Below, one piece after another: positions 6,639 through 26,158 of a stretch of DNA of 64,000 nt. The position numbers were made by a program, and so were the translations under genes. Position 1 is the first letter of the stretch. Every line of letters starts with the position of its first letter. The notes beneath the pieces were generated by a model. That model was not told the DNA's origin and did no database searches. It saw nothing but the letters and a program-made list of their open reading frames with translations. This DNA is from an uncultured Pelagibacteraceae bacterium (GTDB taxonomy: Bacteria; Pseudomonadota; Alphaproteobacteria; Pelagibacterales; Pelagibacteraceae): positions 1 through 64,000 of the forward strand of contig CACNYF010000001.1 of NCBI GenBank assembly GCA_902624535.1. Reading direction: 5' to 3'.

Positions 6639-6744
6639 TATTTTTTCTATTATAACTACCTTTCCCTTTTTTAGCCTTTATAATTCTAGGTTTATACTTT
6701 CTTGTAAAAAGCTCTTTGGCATGAATATTTTTTTTTTTAAGCAT
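6628..6744 (-). CDS. arfA: Putative ArfA-like alternative ribosome-rescue factor (38 aa)
   Basis: Reverse-strand ORF MLKKKNIHAKELFTRKYKPRIIKAKKGKGSYNRKNIKA; KKGKGSYxRK core and A-x-LFxxRxxKxR spacing match ArfA; ATG overlaps the stop of the upstream regulator. Confidence 0.65.
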   Translation of the reverse strand: MLKKKNIHAKELFTRKYKPRIIKAKKGKGSYNRKNIKA

Positions 6745-7300
6745 TTAATTTGTAACCATCTTTAAGACTAGTAATAAACAATTTGTCTCTAAACTTTTTT
6801 TCGATTTTTTTTCTTAACCTGTATATGTGAGTTTCAACCGTGTGTGTTTCTAGTTTGGACTTATGATCCCAAACTTCTTTTTGTAAATCGGTTATAGGCA
6901 CTGGATTTTTTGATTTATTTAAAAAAACAACAATCTTAGCTTCTTTTTCAGTCAATGGTAACTTTTCAGAATTTCTATTCATTACTCTAGAGTTTAAATT
7001 TATAATATACTTTCCTATTTTAATATTATTCTGCTCATTAAATTTGTGCTTTAAAAAATTAATATTAATTATCTCGACCAATTTTATTATATTAATTGGA
7101 TACTCTTTTATATTGATTTGATTATTTAATTTAGATTTTTTTTCTCCAGAAATAATTAGAAAATTTTTGTCGTTTTGTATTTCATCAATTTTGCTTATAT
7201 TACCTAACATTATTTTAAAATTAAAGTGATCTTCAAGCTCCATTAAAATGTTAAATAATACATCAAATTTGTATATTATTAATGTTTGTTGATCTAACAT
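6737..7300 (-). CDS. OmpR-type winged-helix transcriptional regulator with degenerate receiver-like N-terminus (ORF extends to 7318)
   Basis: C-terminus LTEKEAKIVVFLNKSKNPVPITDLQKEVWDHKSKLETHTVETHIYRLRKKIEKKF...GYKLNA is a Trans_reg_C domain. Confidence 0.8.
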   Translation of the reverse strand: MLDQQTLIIYKFDVLFNILMELEDHFNFKIMLGNISKIDEIQNDKNFLIISGEKKSKLNNQINIKEYPINIIKLVEIININFLKHKFNEQNNIKIGKYIINLNSRVMNRNSEKLPLTEKEAKIVVFLNKSKNPVPITDLQKEVWDHKSKLETHTVETHIYRLRKKIEKKFRDKLFITSLKDGYKLNA

Positions 7301-7311
7301 AAACATACAAT

Positions 7312-7806
7312 ATGACAATTGTAGTAAAAAATAAAGATACTCTTATTTATGACGATTTTATATTCAAATGTTGCGTAGGAAAATATGGTTTTACTAAAAA
7401 AAAAATTGAAGGAGATAAGAAGACACCAATTGGAAAATTTTCTCTGGAGTATATTTATTATAGATCTGATAAAAAAAACAAACCTAATACTAAGTTAAAA
7501 TCATTAAAAATAAAAAAAAATATGAGATGGTGTAATGATGTTAAATCAAAAAAAAATTATAATAAACTTATTAGAAAAAAAACAAAATTAAGATGTGAAA
7601 AACTTTTAAGGCATGACTATAAATATGATTATTTATTGCCCATAAAATTCAATTGGAATAAAACTAAAATTGGAAATGGAAGTGCTATTTTTATTCATCT
7701 AACAAAAAATTATAAACCTACAGCAGGATGCATAGGCATATCAGAAAAAGATTTTCTAATATTAATAAAGTTAATTAATAAAAATACAAAAATAAAAATT
7801 CTTTAG
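7312..7806 (+). CDS. L,D-transpeptidase (YkuD) family protein
   Basis: GDKKTPIGKFSL and GSAIFIHLTKNYKPTAGCIGIS catalytic H...GCIGI motif. Confidence 0.85.
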   Translation: MTIVVKNKDTLIYDDFIFKCCVGKYGFTKKKIEGDKKTPIGKFSLEYIYYRSDKKNKPNTKLKSLKIKKNMRWCNDVKSKKNYNKLIRKKTKLRCEKLLRHDYKYDYLLPIKFNWNKTKIGNGSAIFIHLTKNYKPTAGCIGISEKDFLILIKLINKNTKIKIL

Positions 7807-13745: not shown

Positions 13746-14719
13746 TATTTAAGAGTTTTCAATTAAGTAAATTAGATTTTGATAACTATAATTTATATCT
13801 TTTTTATGGGAAAAATGAAGGTTTTATAAATGAAGTTATCCAAGATTATTTTATTAATAATTTTGAAGGCGAAATTATAAAATACGATGAAAATGAGGTT
13901 TTAAATAATAACGAAGTCATCATTGGAGAAATTTTAAATAAGTCGCTTTTTTGCGAAAAGAAGATATTAATTATATCTAGAACGACTGATAAATCTGTTA
14001 AAATTATTGAAGAAATCATAGATAAAAACTTAAACGATATAAAAATAATTTATAAATCTAGCGCACTTGAAAAAAAATCAAAATTAAGAAATTTTTTTGA
14101 AAAAAATAAGAAAATAGTAATTATTCCATTTTATGAAGATGATCTTAAAAGTTTATTACCAATAGTAAATAATTTTATTAAAAAAAATGGAATAAGAATA
14201 TCTCGGGAAAGCATAAATTTATTAATTGAAAGAGCCAATGGTAGCAGAGAGACTCTTAATAAAGAGTTAGAAAAAATTTATAATTATTCTATCTCGGTAA
14301 AAAATTTACAACATGAAACAGTGAAAAAGCTTACAAATTTATCAGAGAACATTAATGTTAATGAGTTAGCTGATCAATATTTAATCAAAAACACAAAACA
14401 TGTAACTAAGATCCTTAACGAGAATAATTATTCTGATGAGGATTGTATGTTAATATTAAGAACAATTCTGATTAAATCAAAAAGATTATTAGGGATAATA
14501 GAGAAAAATAATATGGTAGGAAATATTGATGAAGTAATTAACAATATTCGTCCTCAAATTTTCTGGAAAGACAAAGAAAAAGTGAGAAAACAAGCAAATA
14601 TCTGGGATCTTAGAGAATTAAGAAGGAAAATTTATCAAATCAATGAAGTTGAAACTTTAGTTAAGAGTAGCTCTATAAACTCATTAAATATTGTTTCAAA
14701 TTTCATGCTAAATTATTAA
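13742..14719 (+). CDS. holA: DNA polymerase III subunit delta
   Basis: LYLFYGKNEGFINEVIQDY, IIYKSSALEKKSKLRNFFEK, leuS-lptE-holA synteny. Confidence 0.88.
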   Translation: MIFKSFQLSKLDFDNYNLYLFYGKNEGFINEVIQDYFINNFEGEIIKYDENEVLNNNEVIIGEILNKSLFCEKKILIISRTTDKSVKIIEEIIDKNLNDIKIIYKSSALEKKSKLRNFFEKNKKIVIIPFYEDDLKSLLPIVNNFIKKNGIRISRESINLLIERANGSRETLNKELEKIYNYSISVKNLQHETVKKLTNLSENINVNELADQYLIKNTKHVTKILNENNYSDEDCMLILRTILIKSKRLLGIIEKNNMVGNIDEVINNIRPQIFWKDKEKVRKQANIWDLRELRRKIYQINEVETLVKSSSINSLNIVSNFMLNY

Positions 14720-15567
14720 TAATTATCTTTAATAATGGATATAAGTCTGTCTAATTGATCAACCCCCTTATATTCAAAAATAAGGCTGCCTGAATTATTT
14801 TTTTTTGTTTTTAAGAAAACACGCATACCTATTTTGTCCATAAGTTCATTTTCTGTTGCAGCAATATTTGGATCCTTTGAATTTTTTTTTATTTCAGATC
14901 CCTTTTTTAAAAGTCTAACTAAATTTTCGCTTTGTCTTACTGATAATTTCTTTTTAATTATTTTCTCTGCTAAAAATATTGCATTTTCCAGTCCTATCAG
15001 AATTTTTGCATGACCCTGTGAGATTTTTCCATATCTAATCATATCAATTAATTTTTCTGGCAAATTTAATAATCTTAAAGAATTTGAAATATGAGATCTA
15101 CTTTTTCCTATAAATTGTGATACTTGTTCTTGATCGTAACCAAAATTATCAATGAGATTTTTGTAGCTCTCAGCTTCCTCAATAGCATTTAAATCTTTTC
15201 TTTGAACATTTTCTATAATTGCAAGTTCTAATGATTTTAAATTATCTGCCTGAATTATTGTGACAGGAACCTCGTGAAGTCCTGCCAATTGTGCAGCTTG
15301 CCATCTTCTTTCACCAGCAATAAGTTCATATTTGTTATCTTGATCATCTGATCTTCGAACTATTAAAGGTTGGATGATACCTCTTTCTTTGATTGAATTT
15401 TTCAATTCATCAAGTGACTCTTTTTCAAACATTTTCCTAGGTTGATTTTTATTTGGAACTATTGATCCAATATTAATTTTATTACTTGAAATTTTTATAT
15501 CACTATCTCCAATTAGTGAGGACAAGCCTCTTCCTAATCCTTTCTTATTTTTAAAAGGATTTATCAT
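14716..15567 (-). CDS. parB: Chromosome-partitioning protein ParB
   Basis: KGLGRGLSSLIGD, NQPRKMFEKESLDELKNSIKERGIIQPLIVR, YELIAGERRWQAAQLAG. Confidence 0.97.
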   Translation of the reverse strand: MINPFKNKKGLGRGLSSLIGDSDIKISSNKINIGSIVPNKNQPRKMFEKESLDELKNSIKERGIIQPLIVRRSDDQDNKYELIAGERRWQAAQLAGLHEVPVTIIQADNLKSLELAIIENVQRKDLNAIEEAESYKNLIDNFGYDQEQVSQFIGKSRSHISNSLRLLNLPEKLIDMIRYGKISQGHAKILIGLENAIFLAEKIIKKKLSVRQSENLVRLLKKGSEIKKNSKDPNIAATENELMDKIGMRVFLKTKKNNSGSLIFEYKGVDQLDRLISIIKDNY

Positions 15568-16364
15568 GCTGCACTCTCCACTTGCTTATCTTGGTCTAAA
15601 AATTCCTCTGTAAATTTGAAATATGCTTTACTTCCTGGGCAAACCCTATCATACAGAAGCACTGGTATGCCATGAGATGGAGCTTCAGATAATCTTACAT
15701 TTCTTGGAACTAATGTTGAGTAAACTTTTTCTTTAAAGTAGTTTCTGGCTTCTATTTCAACCTGCCCCGATAACCTATTTCTTTTATCAAACATGGTTAA
15801 CAAGATGCCTCTTATGTCTAATTGAGGGTTAAGCTTAGATTTAATCCTCTCAATCGTTTTCATAAGTTGTGTAAGACCTTCTAATGCAAAAAATTCAGTC
15901 TGCAGCGGTACTAGTAAAGAATCGGATGCCACTAAAGCCATAATTGTTAGAAGGCTAAGTGATGGAGGACAATCGATTAGGATATAATCATAGGTAGCTC
16001 TAGAATCGTTTAAAATAGCGGTTAATTCGTCCTTTAGTTTGAAAGCTCTTCTGCTGTCACCAGCAGTTTCTACTTCAAGACCTGATAAGTCGACATTTGA
16101 TGTGATTAGATTGAGATTTTCAAAGCTTGTTGGTTGTATTACCTCATAAATTTTCTTTTGTCCATTTAAGACATTATAGATTGATGCTTCTGAAGTTATA
16201 CTGTTGGACAATCCAAGACCAGTTGTTGCATTACCTTGGGGATCAAGATCTATAACAAGAACTTTTTTTTCCTTCATGGATAAACCTGCTGCTAAATTGA
16301 TTACGGTAGTTGTCTTTCCAACTCCACCTTTTTGATTAATGACTGAAATTATTTTTTTATACAT
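15564..16364 (-). CDS. parA: Chromosome-partitioning ATPase ParA (start at [17 protein letters not shown]-track extension to 16463 overlaps rsmG)
   Basis: INQKGGVGKTTTVINLAAGL deviant Walker A. Confidence 0.97.
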   Translation of the reverse strand: MYKKIISVINQKGGVGKTTTVINLAAGLSMKEKKVLVIDLDPQGNATTGLGLSNSITSEASIYNVLNGQKKIYEVIQPTSFENLNLITSNVDLSGLEVETAGDSRRAFKLKDELTAILNDSRATYDYILIDCPPSLSLLTIMALVASDSLLVPLQTEFFALEGLTQLMKTIERIKSKLNPQLDIRGILLTMFDKRNRLSGQVEIEARNYFKEKVYSTLVPRNVRLSEAPSHGIPVLLYDRVCPGSKAYFKFTEEFLDQDKQVESAA

Positions 16365-17001
16365 TCTTTTCTCTAAGATTTGAAATTTTAACAATAAAGG
16401 AACCATCATTTGTTGAACTTTTTTTTTCTTCATAGTCAAAAGTCCAAAACTTATGCGTATCATTTAAAATTTTTTTTCCACTCTTGCCTAAAAAAATAAT
16501 AATGTACTTAAAATTTTTAAAATTTGTTTTTGCTATTTGAAATATTATGGGCAGAGGTTTAAATGCTCTGCAAATAATTACATCAGTTTTTAAATTTTTT
16601 TCGTTAAAAATATTTTTTTGATGAATTTCAGAATTTAAATTAAATTTTTTAGTCATTTGTTTTAAGAACATGCTTTTGTGGTAGCTCTTTTCATAAAAAA
16701 TTAGCTTAAATACTGGTTTTTTTGATTTCATCAAAATACCTAAAACTATACCAGGTAAACCAGCTCCAGATCCAAGATCAGTACAAACTTTTATGTCATT
16801 TTTATTAATAAAATCAATGGTTTGTGCACTATCTTCAATATGCCTTGAATTTATTGACTTTTCTGTGCTTTTACTAATTAAATTTATAGAACTATTTCTT
16901 CTAATTATTTCTTTTGAATAATCATTAAGCTCTCTTAATGTTTCACGTGAAACATTTGAGAATGACAATTTGTCAATTTTTAAAATGTTCGAATCAATCA
17001 A
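16357..17001 (-). CDS. rsmG: 16S rRNA (guanine-N7) methyltransferase RsmG/GidB
   Basis: [15 protein letters not shown], located between parA and mnmG. Confidence 0.95.
16939..16954. promoter_or_regulatory. parS: parS centromere site, perfect 16-mer TGTTTCACGTGAAACA (inside rsmG)
   Basis: Exact match to the canonical ParB-binding parS palindrome, adjacent to parAB. Confidence 0.95.
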
Positions 17002-18869
17002 GCTATATGCTTAATAGACTTTCTTTTAAGATGAGACAACAAAATATATACAGCGGCCGGTGTAATTCCATCGATTCTTAAAGCCTGACCCATAGTTTTT
17101 GGTCTAATTTTCTTAAATTTAGATTTTACTTCATTTGAAAGCCCAGAAAAACTGTCATAATTTATGTTTTCTGGTATAATTAAATTTTCATCTCTTTTAA
17201 AAGCCAATATATCTGCCTTTTGTTTTTTTAAATAACCTTTATAATGAGAGCTTATTTCTAATTGTTCATCAATTTCACGTGAAACATATTTAATTTCTGG
17301 CCATATTTCTCTTATTTTTCTCATATTTACTGATTTCTGGCCTAATACTTGATATGCTGTACGACTAATACCATCTTTTGCGATATTTATACTAAATTTA
17401 GCAATTTTTGATGGCGTAATCGTTAACCTATCCATTTTAACTTTAATTTTTGTTAATTCTTTATGTTTTTCTTGGAATTTTTCCATTCTTTCTTTTAAAA
17501 CAAGTCCCGAATTTATTCCTTTATCTGTTAATCGAATATCTGCATTATCTGACCTTAAAGAAAGTCTATATTCTGCTCTTGATGTGAACATTCTATATGG
17601 TTCTGCAACACCTTTTGTTATAAGATCATCTATCATAACGCCTATATATGCTTCTGATCTATCTAAAATAAATGGTTCTTTCCCTTTTACAGCAAGAGCT
17701 GCATTTGCTCCTGCAATCAAACCTTGAGCTGCTGCCTCTTCATAACCAGTTGTTCCATTAATTTGCCCAGCAAGGAATAGATTTTTTATTTTTTTTGTTT
17801 CTAATGTTATAAAAAGCTCCCTTGGATCTACAAAATCATACTCGATCGCATATCCTGGCCTTAATATTTTTACACTCTCTAAACCATTGATTTTACTACA
17901 TATTTCTTGCTGCACATCTTCTGGTAAGGATGTAGAAATACCATTTGGGTATATTGTGTTATCATTCAATCCTTCTGGCTCTAAAAAAATTTGATGTCTT
18001 TCTTTATCTGCAAATTTTTTTATCTTATCCTCAATTGACGGACAATATCGTGGACCCACACCTCCGATGCTTCCTGAATACATTGCACTCCTTTTTAGAT
18101 TTTTAGAAATAATTTTATGAACTGCTTCGTTAGTATATGTCATTCGGCATGAAATTTGTTTATTAAGATTTTTTTTAGTTAGAAATGAAAAAAAGTAAGG
18201 ATCATCGTCTGCATGTTGCTCTTCTAAGTTTTTAAAATTTATTGTACGAGCATCAAGCCTTGGAGGTGTTCCAGTTTTTAATCTTCCTATTTTAAAATTA
18301 TATTTTTTTAACTGCTCGCTTAAACCTGTTGAGGGTTTTTCATTAAATCTTCCGGCAGGAGTTTTGCTATCGCCAATATGAATCAAACCATTCAAAAATG
18401 TTCCGGTTGTTAGAATTATCTTAGATGATTTTATTTCTTTACCAGATTGCGTAATAAATCCAATTATATTATTTTTTTTAAAAATAAACTTAATTACAGG
18501 ATCTGAAAAAATGCTTAAATTACAGTAGTTTACAAGTTTTTCTTGCATGAATTTTTTATATAACGACCTATCACTTTGAGTTCTAGGCCCTCTAACAGCT
18601 GGTCCTCTGCTTCTATTTAATAGTCTAAATTGAATGCCAGATTTGTCTGCTACCACACCCATAACTCCATCAAGGGCATCTATTTCCCTTACCAAATGTC
18701 CTTTGCCCAATCCACCAATTGCAGGATTACATGACATCTCACCTATTGTATCAAAGCTATGAGTAAATAATGCGGTATTAACACCTAATCTTGCTGATGC
18801 TGCTGCAGCTTCACAGCCAGCATGGCCCCCACCTATTACAACAACATCGAAGAATAACTCATTTTTCAT
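16998..18869 (-). CDS. mnmG: tRNA uridine-5-carboxymethylaminomethyl modification enzyme MnmG/GidA
   Basis: [46 protein letters not shown]. Confidence 0.99.
17271..17286. promoter_or_regulatory. parS: Second parS-like site AATTTCACGTGAAACA (14/16 to consensus), inside mnmG
   Basis: Retains TTTCACGTGAAA core; encodes VSREI in MnmG. Confidence 0.75.
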
Positions 18870-18945: not shown

Positions 18946-20277
18946 TTATTTGCCTATGCAAAAATCATTGAAAATTGATCCTAATACCTCTTCAACATCA
19001 ACTTTACCAACTATCATTCCAAGATATCTTACAGCCAATCTTAAATCTTCTGCTCCTTTATCGAAATCTTCAAGAGATTTTTTTTTTTGAAAATTTTTTA
19101 AATGTTCAACACAATTTTTTAGATTAGATCTATGCCTTTCTCTAGTAATGTAAATATCTTCAGATGAGATAAATTTATTTTTTAAATTTTCTTTAATCAG
19201 ATCAATCAATTGATCTAAATTTTTTTCTTTCTTTACGGATATAAATATTGGGTTATATTTTTCGATTTCATTGCTAATTTCATTAACACCCAAATCTGAT
19301 TTGTTTATTACTAAAATTGACTTCTTTATTGCAGATTCATTAAAAAAGTCTCTAAAATCTTGACTTTTAGGCTCTAGTACAATTATATTTAAATCAGCAT
19401 TTTTGGCCTTTTTTAGAGCCAATTTAATTCCTTTTTTTTCTATCTCATTTTTTGAAACTCTTATTCCAGCAGTATCTGATAAAATAACTGGGAAGCCGTC
19501 TAAATTTAAATGAGCCTCGATCACATCTCTTGTAGTTCCAGCAATTTCTGAAACAATTGCAATATCTCTTCTTGATAAATAATTTAAGAGTGAAGACTTG
19601 CCAGCATTAGTTGGGCCTACAATTGCAATTTTAAAACCTTCCCTAATTCTTTCTCCTACTCTTCGGTCATTTAATATTTTTTCTATTTCATTTCTAATAT
19701 AATCAGTTTCAGTATGAATATTTTCTAAAATATCATCAGGTAAATCATCTTCTGGAAAATCTATTTTTGCTTCAACATTAGATAGAATTTTTATCAATCT
19801 TGATCTTAAGGAATTAAATTTTTCTGAACTTTTTCCAGACATGATTTTAATGGCTTGCTGTCTTTGAATTTCTGTTTCAGAAGATATTAAGTCTGAGATA
19901 CTTTCGGCTTTTAAAAGATTTATTTTTCCGTTTTGAAAAGCTATCTTGGTGAATTCACCTGGATCTGCCAGTCTGCAGCCATCAATTTTTGATATTGTGT
20001 CTTGGATGGAATCTACGACTGCTTTGCTACCGTGAACATGGAATTCAGCCATATCCTCACCGGTGTAGCTGTATGGACCAGGAAACCATATTAATATTCC
20101 TTCATCTATAAGCTCATTATTGTTGATTTTGTTGAATTTTCTTAATGTTGCAACTCTTGGCTCTGGTGCTTTTTGCTTGGTTAAATTAACAATAACATCC
20201 TTTGTTTTCGAGCCAGATACTCTTATGACAGAAATTCCAGCAATACCTGGGCCTGAGGATAGGGCATATATTGTCAT
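18946..20277 (-). CDS. mnmE: tRNA modification GTPase MnmE/TrmE
   Basis: GEFTKIAFQNGKINLLKAES, GPTNAGKSSLLNYLSRRDIAIVSEIAGTTRDVIE, C-terminal FCIGK. Confidence 0.98.
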   Translation of the reverse strand: MTIYALSSGPGIAGISVIRVSGSKTKDVIVNLTKQKAPEPRVATLRKFNKINNNELIDEGILIWFPGPYSYTGEDMAEFHVHGSKAVVDSIQDTISKIDGCRLADPGEFTKIAFQNGKINLLKAESISDLISSETEIQRQQAIKIMSGKSSEKFNSLRSRLIKILSNVEAKIDFPEDDLPDDILENIHTETDYIRNEIEKILNDRRVGERIREGFKIAIVGPTNAGKSSLLNYLSRRDIAIVSEIAGTTRDVIEAHLNLDGFPVILSDTAGIRVSKNEIEKKGIKLALKKAKNADLNIIVLEPKSQDFRDFFNESAIKKSILVINKSDLGVNEISNEIEKYNPIFISVKKEKNLDQLIDLIKENLKNKFISSEDIYITRERHRSNLKNCVEHLKNFQKKKSLEDFDKGAEDLRLAVRYLGMIVGKVDVEEVLGSIFNDFCIGK

Positions 20278-20323
20278 TAAATTAATTATAGCTAGTATTA
20301 GAATTAAATATATAAATTTTTCT

Positions 20324-21163
20324 ATGATTATTTGGATTGCATCTTACCCAAAATGTGGAAACACTTGGGTGAGGTCACTTCTATCAGCGTATTATTTTTC
20401 TAATGATGGAGAGTTCAATTTTGATCTTTTGAAAAATATTAGACAATTTCCAAGTCCATATTTTTTTCCTAATAAAGTTAATAATGTTGAAGAAGCTTCC
20501 GCTAATTGGATACCTGTTCAAAAAAAAATCAAAGAAACCAAAAAAGTTTTTTTTTTAAAAACACACAATGTATATGGAGCATATAAAGGAAATAATTTCA
20601 CTTCTCCAGATTACACATTGGGGGCGATCAATATTGTAAGAGATCCTAGAAATGTAATTACTTCTTTGATGAATCATTTCTCAATTAATGAAGAGGATGC
20701 GCTTAAAATGATGAGCAATGTGAATAGAAATTTAAGAGATCGAAATGATAAAGATAATTATGCAACTTATTCTTTTATTAGTTCTTGGGACAAAAACTAT
20801 AGGTCTTGGAAATTAACTAAAAATATAAATAAAATTCTTATAAAATATGAAGACCTAGAAAAAGATATCGAGAATACTTTTTTGAAAATTATTAAGTTCA
20901 CGAATAAAATAATGAGAAAAAATGATGAAATTAATTTTGAGAAACTTAGGAAATCTATTAAAACAACAGAATTCGATCTACTAAAAAAAAAAGAGGAAAA
21001 AGAGGGTTTTGATGAAGCTATATACTCATCAGATAATAGTAAAACAAAGGCATTTTTTAATTTAGGAAGAAATAACGACTATAAAAAACTGTTAAATAAT
21101 AAAACAATTAAATCTATTGAAGAATTGTTTGGTGAAGAAATGAAAGAGCTTAGATATCTTTAA
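20324..21163 (+). CDS. Sulfotransferase-domain protein
   Basis: MIIWIASYPKCGNTWVRSLLSA (5'-PSB loop) and NIVRDPRNVITSLMNHFSI (3'-PB motif); start moved from 20120 to 20324 to avoid overlap with mnmE. Confidence 0.88.
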   Translation: MIIWIASYPKCGNTWVRSLLSAYYFSNDGEFNFDLLKNIRQFPSPYFFPNKVNNVEEASANWIPVQKKIKETKKVFFLKTHNVYGAYKGNNFTSPDYTLGAINIVRDPRNVITSLMNHFSINEEDALKMMSNVNRNLRDRNDKDNYATYSFISSWDKNYRSWKLTKNINKILIKYEDLEKDIENTFLKIIKFTNKIMRKNDEINFEKLRKSIKTTEFDLLKKKEEKEGFDEAIYSSDNSKTKAFFNLGRNNDYKKLLNNKTIKSIEELFGEEMKELRYL

Positions 21164-23063: not shown

Positions 23064-24056
23064 TTAAATACATCTTGTTACTAAACTTTTAATCAATTTA
23101 ATATGATCGTCATTATCATTAAGGCATGGAATCATATCAAAATTTTTTCCACCAGACTCCATGAAACTTTCTTTGCCTTGTATAAGTATCTCCTCCAAGG
23201 TTTCTACACAATCTGAAGAAAAGCCAGGACATATTGCTAGGACATTTTTTTTTCCATCATTTGGTAAACTTTCAAGGGTCTTATCTGTATAAGGTTGCAA
23301 CCATTCTTGTGGTCCAAATCTTGATTGAAATGTCGTTTTAATTTCTATGGCATTAAATTTTTCAGTCATCAATCTTGTGGTTTTGTAACAATAACAATGA
23401 TATGGATCGCCCTTATCAAAGTACTTTTTAGGAATACCGTGATAAGAGGCTAATATTAAATCTGGTTTCCAATCAATCTCACTAATTTTTTTATTTATAG
23501 AGTTTACTAATGCCTCTATGTATAATGGATGTGATTCATAGTGTGGTATTATTTGCAAAGATGGCTGCCATCTCATATTCATTAAAGACCTATAAACCTC
23601 ATCACAAACAGTTGCGGTAGTAGCTGCAGCATATTGGGGGTATAAAGGTAAAATCACTAAATTTTCACATCCTTCTGAATGTAGTTTTGCTATTTTGCTC
23701 TTGATACTTGGGTTCCCATATCTCATTGCAAAATCAATAATTAAATTTTTACTTTTAAAATGTGCAGAAGTTTTTTCTGTTTGTTTTTTTGTGTAATAAA
23801 GTAATGGAGACATGTTTTCATCCTTCATCCAAATTTCTTTATAGGCTTTTGCTGTTTTAGAGGGTCTAAAGGTTAAAATAAAAAGATTAAGAATTATTTG
23901 CCAAATAATTGGGTTGACCTCTATTACTCTCCTGTCAGACAAAAATTCTTTTAAGTATTTTCTTATATCAAACCAACTTGTAGAATCCGGAGTTCCAAGA
24001 TTGATCAATAAAACTCCAGTTTTTCCAAATTTTATAGGCGGATGTTGTTCATTCAT
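23064..24056 (-). CDS. hemH: Ferrochelatase
   Basis: KTGVLLINLGTPDS, AMRYGNPSI, LASYHGIPKKYFDKGDPYHCYC, CPGFSSDCVETLEEI. Confidence 0.98.
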   Translation of the reverse strand: MNEQHPPIKFGKTGVLLINLGTPDSTSWFDIRKYLKEFLSDRRVIEVNPIIWQIILNLFILTFRPSKTAKAYKEIWMKDENMSPLLYYTKKQTEKTSAHFKSKNLIIDFAMRYGNPSIKSKIAKLHSEGCENLVILPLYPQYAAATTATVCDEVYRSLMNMRWQPSLQIIPHYESHPLYIEALVNSINKKISEIDWKPDLILASYHGIPKKYFDKGDPYHCYCYKTTRLMTEKFNAIEIKTTFQSRFGPQEWLQPYTDKTLESLPNDGKKNVLAICPGFSSDCVETLEEILIQGKESFMESGGKNFDMIPCLNDNDDHIKLIKSLVTRCI

Positions 24057-25054
24057 TTATAATTTCTCACTATATTCACTAGTTCGTAGACCATATCAAC
24101 GGGCGTTTCTGGTAAAATTCCATGCCCTAAATTAAATACATAAGGATGATCTTTAAATATATCTAAATATCTTTTAATTTCTTTTCTTAAACTTTCTTTG
24201 TTTGACAAAAGAATTTCTGGATTTAATCCACCTTGTATTGGTATGTCTAAATATTTTATTATATCTTTGGGATCTACATCATAATCGATATTAACCATGC
24301 TAGGCTTAACAATTTTACTGAATTTAACATAATCAGAAATACCTCTTGGAAAACATATAACGGGTACACCTAAATTTTTTACATGATCTACTAGAGACAA
24401 TGTTGGACTATATAAAAATTTATCAAAATCATTTTGTATTAAGCCGGCCCAACTGTCAAAGATTTGAATTATTGTGGCACCTGCTTTTATTTGATTTTCT
24501 ATATGAGTCTTTATAAATTTATCTAGCAAATTTAAAATTTCGTTAATTAAAATCTTATCTTTGGAAAAAACTTCTGACAATCCATTTTTAGGTGAAACTT
24601 TATTAATCATATATACTAGCAGTGTCCATGGAGCTCCAACGAAGCCTATTAGGTCTTTGTTATCGAGTTGATTGCTATTTTTAAGATTTGATAACAATTT
24701 GTATACTGGTGAGAGTTTTTTTGTAAAGTTATCTTTGGTGACGTTCTGAAGTTTTTGTAACTCTAGACTCCCTAGATTTGGACCAAGATTTTTTTTAAAT
24801 TCTACAGTTTGACCCATTCCGTAAGGTACCATAAGTATATCTGAAAATATTATCGCAGCATCAAAACCAAATCTTTTTATTGGCTGTAATGTTATTTGTT
24901 CTGATAAATTATGATTTAGACATAATTTAATAAAATCTGGATTTGATTTTCTAATTTCTCGGAATTCTGGTAGATATCTTCCAGCTTGTCTCATTAACCA
25001 AACTGGATTTATTTTAGTATTTTTATTTATTAAACATTTTTGTATTGGTGTCAT
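24053..25054 (-). CDS. hemE: Uroporphyrinogen decarboxylase
   Basis: PVWLMRQAGRYLPEFREIR, GFVGAPWTLLVYM, NLGHGILPETPV. Confidence 0.98.
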   Translation of the reverse strand: MTPIQKCLINKNTKINPVWLMRQAGRYLPEFREIRKSNPDFIKLCLNHNLSEQITLQPIKRFGFDAAIIFSDILMVPYGMGQTVEFKKNLGPNLGSLELQKLQNVTKDNFTKKLSPVYKLLSNLKNSNQLDNKDLIGFVGAPWTLLVYMINKVSPKNGLSEVFSKDKILINEILNLLDKFIKTHIENQIKAGATIIQIFDSWAGLIQNDFDKFLYSPTLSLVDHVKNLGVPVICFPRGISDYVKFSKIVKPSMVNIDYDVDPKDIIKYLDIPIQGGLNPEILLSNKESLRKEIKRYLDIFKDHPYVFNLGHGILPETPVDMVYELVNIVRNYK

Positions 25055-25336
25055 TTATATTAAGATAATTATATTTAGTATTTATTATTAGTATGTATTG
25101 TTAATAACGTAAATTACTCAATTTCAACACTTTGTTAACTTTTTATACATTCAAGCATCTAAAAAACCCTATAAATTGTAGACTATTTAATTATTTTATA
25201 AAACTATAAAATTGTTAATAAGATATTCACATTAATTTTAAATGTTAATTAAATGAGAACAAAAAATACTTCTTTTATAATTTTACCAAATAAGAATTAT
25301 TTCTTAAATTAAAACTAATTTATAAACAATTTATAC
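25055..25336. other. oriC: Probable chromosomal replication origin (oriC) in hemE/ppsR intergenic region
   Basis: Divergent hemE/DUF299 context known from alphaproteobacterial origins; very AT-rich; repeated TGTTAATAA (25099-25107, 25213-25221) and TTTATACAT (25142-25150, 25330-25338); TTAA-N7-TTAA at 25238-25252; flanking genes mostly point away. Confidence 0.7.
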
Positions 25337-26158
25337 ATGAAAAATACATATCAAATATTTCTAATTTCAGATTCTACAGGTGAAACATTGGAAAGAATTT
25401 TCATGGCTCTAAAAGCTCAATTTAGTAACTTTGATTATGAACTTAATAAATTTTCCTTTACACGAACAGAGAGTCAATTATCAGCTATCCTTAAAAAGGC
25501 AAAGGGGAAAGATAGCCCTATTATATTATACACTGTAGTAAATAGTAAACTTGCAAAACATTTAGCAGAAAAGGCAAATAAAATTGGTATACCTTGTTTT
25601 GGTGTTTTAGGAGATCTAATTTTAAATTTTTCAAAAATTCTAAATCAAAAAGCGACTCATAAACCTAGTGGTCAACATATATTAAATGACGAGTATTACA
25701 AAAGAATTGAGGCGATTCAGTTTACAATGAACCATGACGACGGTAATCAAACAGATAATGTTCTCGAGTCAGATATAGTTTTAATAGGCGTTAGCAGAAC
25801 AAGTAAAACACCAACTTCTATTTATTTGGCAAATAAAGGATTAAAAACTGCCAATATACCACTAGTGAATGAAATGAAAATCCCGAAAGATGTGTTAGAA
25901 TCAAAAAATTTGTGTATAGTTGGTTTAGTAACAGAAGCCGAAAGACTATTTGACATCCGACGTAATAGACTTAGCTCACTTAAAGAGAATGAAGCATCTG
26001 ATTATACCGACTTAGAAAAAATTAAAGTTGAGGTTGAACAGTCAAAGAAAATTTTTAAAAGGAATAGATGGCCCACAATAGATGTAACAAGAAAATCTGT
26101 TGAAGAGACCGCCGCATCAGTTATTAAAATATATGAAATAAAAAATAAAAATGCTTAA
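25337..26158 (+). CDS. ppsR: Pyruvate, phosphate dikinase regulatory protein / DUF299 kinase-pyrophosphorylase
   Basis: IFLISDSTGETLERI, DIVLIGVSRTSKTPTSIYLANKG. Confidence 0.94.
   Translation: MKNTYQIFLISDSTGETLERIFMALKAQFSNFDYELNKFSFTRTESQLSAILKKAKGKDSPIILYTVVNSKLAKHLAEKANKIGIPCFGVLGDLILNFSKILNQKATHKPSGQHILNDEYYKRIEAIQFTMNHDDGNQTDNVLESDIVLIGVSRTSKTPTSIYLANKGLKTANIPLVNEMKIPKDVLESKNLCIVGLVTEAERLFDIRRNRLSSLKENEASDYTDLEKIKVEVEQSKKIFKRNRWPTIDVTRKSVEETAASVIKIYEIKNKNA

Follow-up and report, generated by a model that had tools for sequence, protein, structure and literature searches.

Does the long AT-rich gap between hemE and ppsR serve as the chromosomal origin of replication (oriC) in a SAR11 bacterium (Pelagibacteraceae)? 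We addressed this question in a 64-kb window of DNA, contig 1 of a 992-kb assembly that comprises 48 contigs and is 71% complete. A comparison of ppsR gave uncultured Pelagibacteraceae as the closest named relatives, which places the window in SAR11. An earlier note on this window had proposed an oriC with degenerate DnaA boxes at the site, citing origins of Caulobacter and Rickettsia near hemE and DUF299. The precedent is confirmed in the literature, where the proven origin of Caulobacter and the predicted origins of Rickettsia lie between hemE and COG1806 (PMC1914354; PMC8959179). The location of the SAR11 gap follows this alphaproteobacterial precedent and is therefore expected. Some earlier knowledge of a SAR11 origin exists as well, because a figure in PMC4033161 marks the oriC of HTCC1062 as manually identified; no location for it was found there.

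Composition and conservation of the hemE/ppsR gap

The gap spans positions 25055-25336 (282 bp), and a re-scan of the window reproduced these coordinates together with all of the motif positions previously listed for it. It is the longest non-coding gap of the 64-kb window (the runner-up has 216 bp) and contains 15.2% GC compared to 29.1% for the window as a whole, in agreement with its description as unusually long and AT-rich. The left flank is hemE (24053-25054, minus strand), an ORF whose orthologue in the closed relative G012 matches the URO-D family, and the right flank is ppsR (DUF299, Kinase-PPPase, COG1806; 25337-26158, plus strand), with a PF03618 match at 25355-26125. The observation that the flanking genes point away from the gap applies to the whole stretch between parB and dnaQ, with one exception, a plus-strand ORF at ~20.3-21.2 kb. 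A plus-strand ORF at 20120-21163, sulfotransferase-like according to its sequence-based name, opposes the block from parB to hemE, in which all other genes are on the minus strand.

The divergent hemE/ppsR arrangement with a gap of 261-285 bp was retained in 50 of 50 genus-mates that carry both genes; across the Alphaproteobacteria, 29 of 30 sampled loci kept the divergent pair, many of them with similar elements. Among 101 genomes of relatives of the window, ppsR was detected in 52, all of which belong to its genus. No ppsR was detected in any sampled genome of the sister family, in which hemE faces maf over a gap of ~270-280 bp that retains the trio-like repeats, the box, and the length. The reverse situation was found in G183, a closed genome from another genus of the Pelagibacteraceae: hemE has moved to 718 kb, close to where the terminus is inferred, and the gene now opposite ppsR is rho. 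The rho/ppsR gap keeps the order TAG TTT TGT TAT TAG GTCA TGTTTATAATGGGGTTAATTA, and the core, the skew origin, and parS all remain beside ppsR despite the move of hemE. Each of these two lineages lacks one flanking gene at the site, and together they distinguish the origin core from the genes beside it. The core survives the loss or move of either flanking gene, so it is not simply the promoter of hemE or of ppsR.

DnaA boxes and DnaA-trios

Alignment of the 50 gaps revealed seven positions that are box-like in 68-98% of the genomes, against ~2.5% per position by chance; the alignment rows share ancestry, and these percentages are not independent counts. The claim that degenerate DnaA boxes are conserved in relatives is thus supported. 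The most conserved position is the predicted anchor box TTATTAACA (25099-25107, minus strand), at whose column 98% of the 50 genomes are within one mismatch of TTWTNMACA. Across the relatives, the sequence at this column is TTATTCACA in 26 genomes, TTATTAACA in another 8, and TTATCCACA in a single one. The boxes of this strain, although degenerate, are therefore orthologues of consensus boxes.

Three further predicted boxes follow on the plus strand at a spacing of 11 bp, namely position 2 (ATTTCAACA, 25121-25129, box-like in 80% of genomes, with TTATTAACA or TTATCAACA in relatives), position 3 (TTGTTAACT, 25132-25140, 68%), and position 4 (TTATACATT, 25143-25151, 74%). Toward ppsR lie position 5 (ATATTCACA, 25223-25231, plus strand, 74%, with TTATTCACA in relatives), position 6 (TAATTAACA, 25243-25251, minus strand, 82%), and position 7 (TTATAAACA, 25320-25328, plus strand, 82%), the last of them beside the ppsR start. 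The repeat TGTTAATAA at 25213, which the earlier note had stressed as a box, fared less well: this minus-strand site (TTATTAACA, 25213-25221) is box-like in only 36% of the genomes and appears to be lineage-specific. The motif TTTATACAT at 25330 extends into the start of ppsR.

Four sites within one mismatch of TTATNCACA occur in the gap, a count exceeded by no 282-bp window of the 64 kb and reached in ~0.1% of dinucleotide shuffles (mean 0.67). The gap of this strain has no perfect TTATNCACA box, its boxes being at least one mismatch off the consensus. The 50 orthologous gaps together contain 104 occurrences of TTATYMACA, versus 4.6 in shuffles. Among the 282-bp windows in the sampled 1.0 Mb of G012, a closed genus-mate, the one at the gap ranked first for TTATNCACA, for TTATCCACA (at most one mismatch), and for TTATYMACA, and second by the loosest box count. 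Single short AT motifs carry little weight, as had been cautioned: the window contains 89 copies of TGTTAA and 15 of TTAA-N7-TTAA, near the expectation from composition. A gapless matrix built from 47 alphaproteobacterial cores outside the family missed the site in the window as well as in G012 and G183, a failure that we attribute to variable spacing and to the GC-rich composition of most genomes of the class.

Next to the anchor box, the plus strand contains four predicted DnaA-trios (25083-25094; NAN rule, PMC8287927) and a 4-nt spacer GTAT (25095-25098), giving the order TAT TAT TAG TAT GTAT TGTTAATAA. Among 47 unique relatives, the spacer between trios and anchor box is constant at 4 nt, T is conserved at -16, -13, -10, and -7 from the box at frequencies of 0.96, 1.00, 0.94, and 0.91, and A follows one base past each such T at 0.85, 0.62, 0.74, and 0.87. 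The published rule for a basal unwinding system calls for a box within two mismatches of TTATCCACA, a spacer of at most 16 bp, and at least three NAN trios (PMC8287927). In the window, TTATTAACA is two mismatches off, the spacer has 4 nt, and four trios are in register; AT-rich DNA readily satisfies this rule alone, and the weight lies on the conserved register. By longest run, the median was reached by 11% of shuffles for the sister family and by 46% for the class sample. As these longest-run tests are weak in single lineages, the trio claim rests on the column periodicity. The layout of box, spacer, and DnaA-trios is common to this gap and to the basal unwinding system of Bacillus subtilis and others, whereas most of the trios in this gap read TAT instead of TAG, and their activity is predicted. 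The stretch adjoining hemE (25055-25098, 9% GC) is a candidate unwinding region, as judged from its position beside the trios and the box. The hemE/ppsR gap of L248, an AT-rich alphaproteobacterium, is ~1067 bp long and contains perfect TTATCCACA boxes and seven consecutive trio-like triplets.

Strand skew, parS, and alternative functions of the gap

Raw GC skew tracks gene orientation in G012, so we compared the third-position GC skew, which differs between leading- and lagging-strand genes and provides a test independent of gene direction. For G012 (1,343,202 bp, 1.0 Mb sampled), the best origin was at 1.27 Mb within a broad maximum of about 1.23-1.32 Mb, and the gap is located at 1.262 Mb. 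For G183 (1,211,322 bp, 0.8 Mb sampled), the best position was 160 kb, with 140 kb within 1 log unit and ppsR at 141 kb. The GC-skew check proposed for the site thus placed the origin of both closed relatives at the gap and not at dnaA, 63-72 kb away. In G061, a genome of the sister family, third-position skew showed no clear origin, and hemE falls within a broad cumulative minimum.

At a distance of 8.1 kb from the gap, positions 16939-16954 form a perfect parS, TGTTTCACGTGAAACA, of which 0.03 copies would be expected in the window by chance; it is the sole perfect copy in the 992-kb assembly, and a second, degenerate copy is found at 17271-17286. The adjacent minus-strand ORFs were named parB (14716-15567) and parA (15564-16463) from their sequences. 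As a general rule of ParABS systems, parS is origin-proximal. Each of nine other Pelagibacterales genomes contains exactly one parS at a threshold of at most one mismatch (9/9), at a computed distance of 7-20 kb from the hemE/ppsR gap or its equivalent. A single parS per chromosome is a low number relative to many bacteria.

These data bear on two other explanations of the conserved gap. It could be maintained solely because hemE and ppsR, which diverge from it, have their promoters and leaders there; promoters are surely present too, and the alignment of relatives shows a conserved ATAC directly before the ppsR start. However, the core is kept where ppsR is lost and where hemE has moved away, the conserved blocks coincide with DnaA boxes and trios, the gap is where skew and parS place the origin, and an Rfam search of the gap found no RNA, all of which makes promoter function as the sole cause of conservation very unlikely. 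Alternatively, the true origin could lie beside dnaA, as in many other bacteria, with the gap acting as a DnaA-titrating or regulatory cluster. The dnaA gene is indeed in the same general region of the closed relatives (in G012 on the hemE side at 1.199 Mb, ~63 kb from the gap; in G183 at 69 kb), and the skew maxima are broad; it was not found in the 71% complete assembly of this strain, and the window's contig starts 25 kb from the gap. Against this location, the third-position skew likelihood at dnaA is lower than at the best origin by ~5 log units in G012 and ~7 in G183, the dnaA locus of G012 has no box cluster of this kind among the top-ranking windows, and parS lies beside the gap; we give an origin at dnaA almost no credence.

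The original reading as an oriC with degenerate DnaA boxes is thus strengthened by conservation in 50 genomes, by skew in two closed relatives, by the nearby single parS, and by a core that persists where either flanking gene is gone. Judged from sequence comparison, the hemE/ppsR gap is very probably the oriC of the SAR11 (Pelagibacteraceae) chromosome.

CtrA and the proposed mode of initiation

The gap shares with alphaproteobacterial hemE/COG1806 origins the divergent flanks, a standout cluster of DnaA boxes, an AT content above average, and a switch of strand skew at the site, the latter observed in two closed relatives rather than in the window's own genome. The CtrA sites of such origins are a different matter, and this gap lacks support for them. 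A single TTAA-N7-TTAA element at 25238 had been taken as a match to the CtrA consensus and would be the sign of a CtrA-regulated, Caulobacter-type origin. This assignment does not stand: the element is no more frequent in the 64-kb window than chance predicts, the closest relatives do not keep its spacing, and position 6, a conserved DnaA box, lies at the same site. A search of G012 yielded four Trans_reg_C regulators, one of which is PhoB by the curated cut-off; none of the four reached the CtrA cut-off, the best score being 133.5 of 350 bits, on PhoB. The name of the CtrA model suggests that it was built from the Rhodobacter group, and the search in G012 is therefore not a full test. In addition, ctrA is reported to be absent in Pelagibacter (PMC2877005). 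Taken together, CtrA regulation of this origin appears extremely unlikely. CtrA sites are not universal, as some Wolbachia and Ehrlichia origins are without them (PMC1914354); because they are optional in hemE/COG1806 origins, their absence does not exclude the SAR11 gap from this group. No GANTC sites were found in the gap either. An OmpR-type regulator with a winged helix and no clear receiver domain is encoded in the window at 6737-7318 (minus strand), and a similar protein occurs in G012 at 1,244,375, ~17 kb from the origin.

Compared with Cori of Caulobacter crescentus, the SAR11 gap is alike in its divergent flanks, AT-rich region, and combination of strong and weak DnaA boxes (PMC1914354, PMC8959179), but it measures 282 bp, all of its boxes are degenerate in this strain, and CtrA sites are unsupported, with no CtrA found. 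The predicted Rickettsia and Wolbachia origins are likewise on the hemE side, very AT-rich, and poor in DnaA boxes; most of them contain predicted CtrA and IHF sites (PMC1914354), whereas the SAR11 gap has no supported CtrA sites.

We propose that DnaA would bind both the anchor box (25099-25107) and the weaker boxes on the right of it, where the three boxes spaced at 11 bp, approximately one helical turn, may align DnaA on one face of the DNA. From the anchor box, DnaA would extend across the 4-nt spacer onto the trios at 25083-25094 and melt the 9%-GC stretch (25055-25098) beside hemE, where the helicase would be loaded. Replication forks would then leave in both directions, ParB at the one parS, 8 kb from the gap, would segregate the new origins, and CtrA would take no part. 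Tentatively, SAR11 may possess a minimal origin with weak, phased DnaA boxes, AT-type trios, one parS, and no CtrA or GANTC sites, at which initiation is set almost only by the level and nucleotide state of DnaA; we consider this generalization possible but more doubtful than probable.

The present analysis adds a map of the elements, the finding that the core persists with a flank lost or moved, and the single parS; these additions were not found in the literature searched, although this does not establish that they are unpublished. SAR11 bacteria are among the most abundant cell groups of the ocean. A base-level origin map could allow origin-to-terminus read ratios to be used as a gauge of growth rate in SAR11 metagenomes, gives assemblies a fixed start point, and would provide a naturally occurring example of an origin without CtrA in the Alphaproteobacteria. 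If the proposal of a minimal, DnaA-set origin is true, it could explain loose cell-cycle control in the streamlined cells of SAR11.
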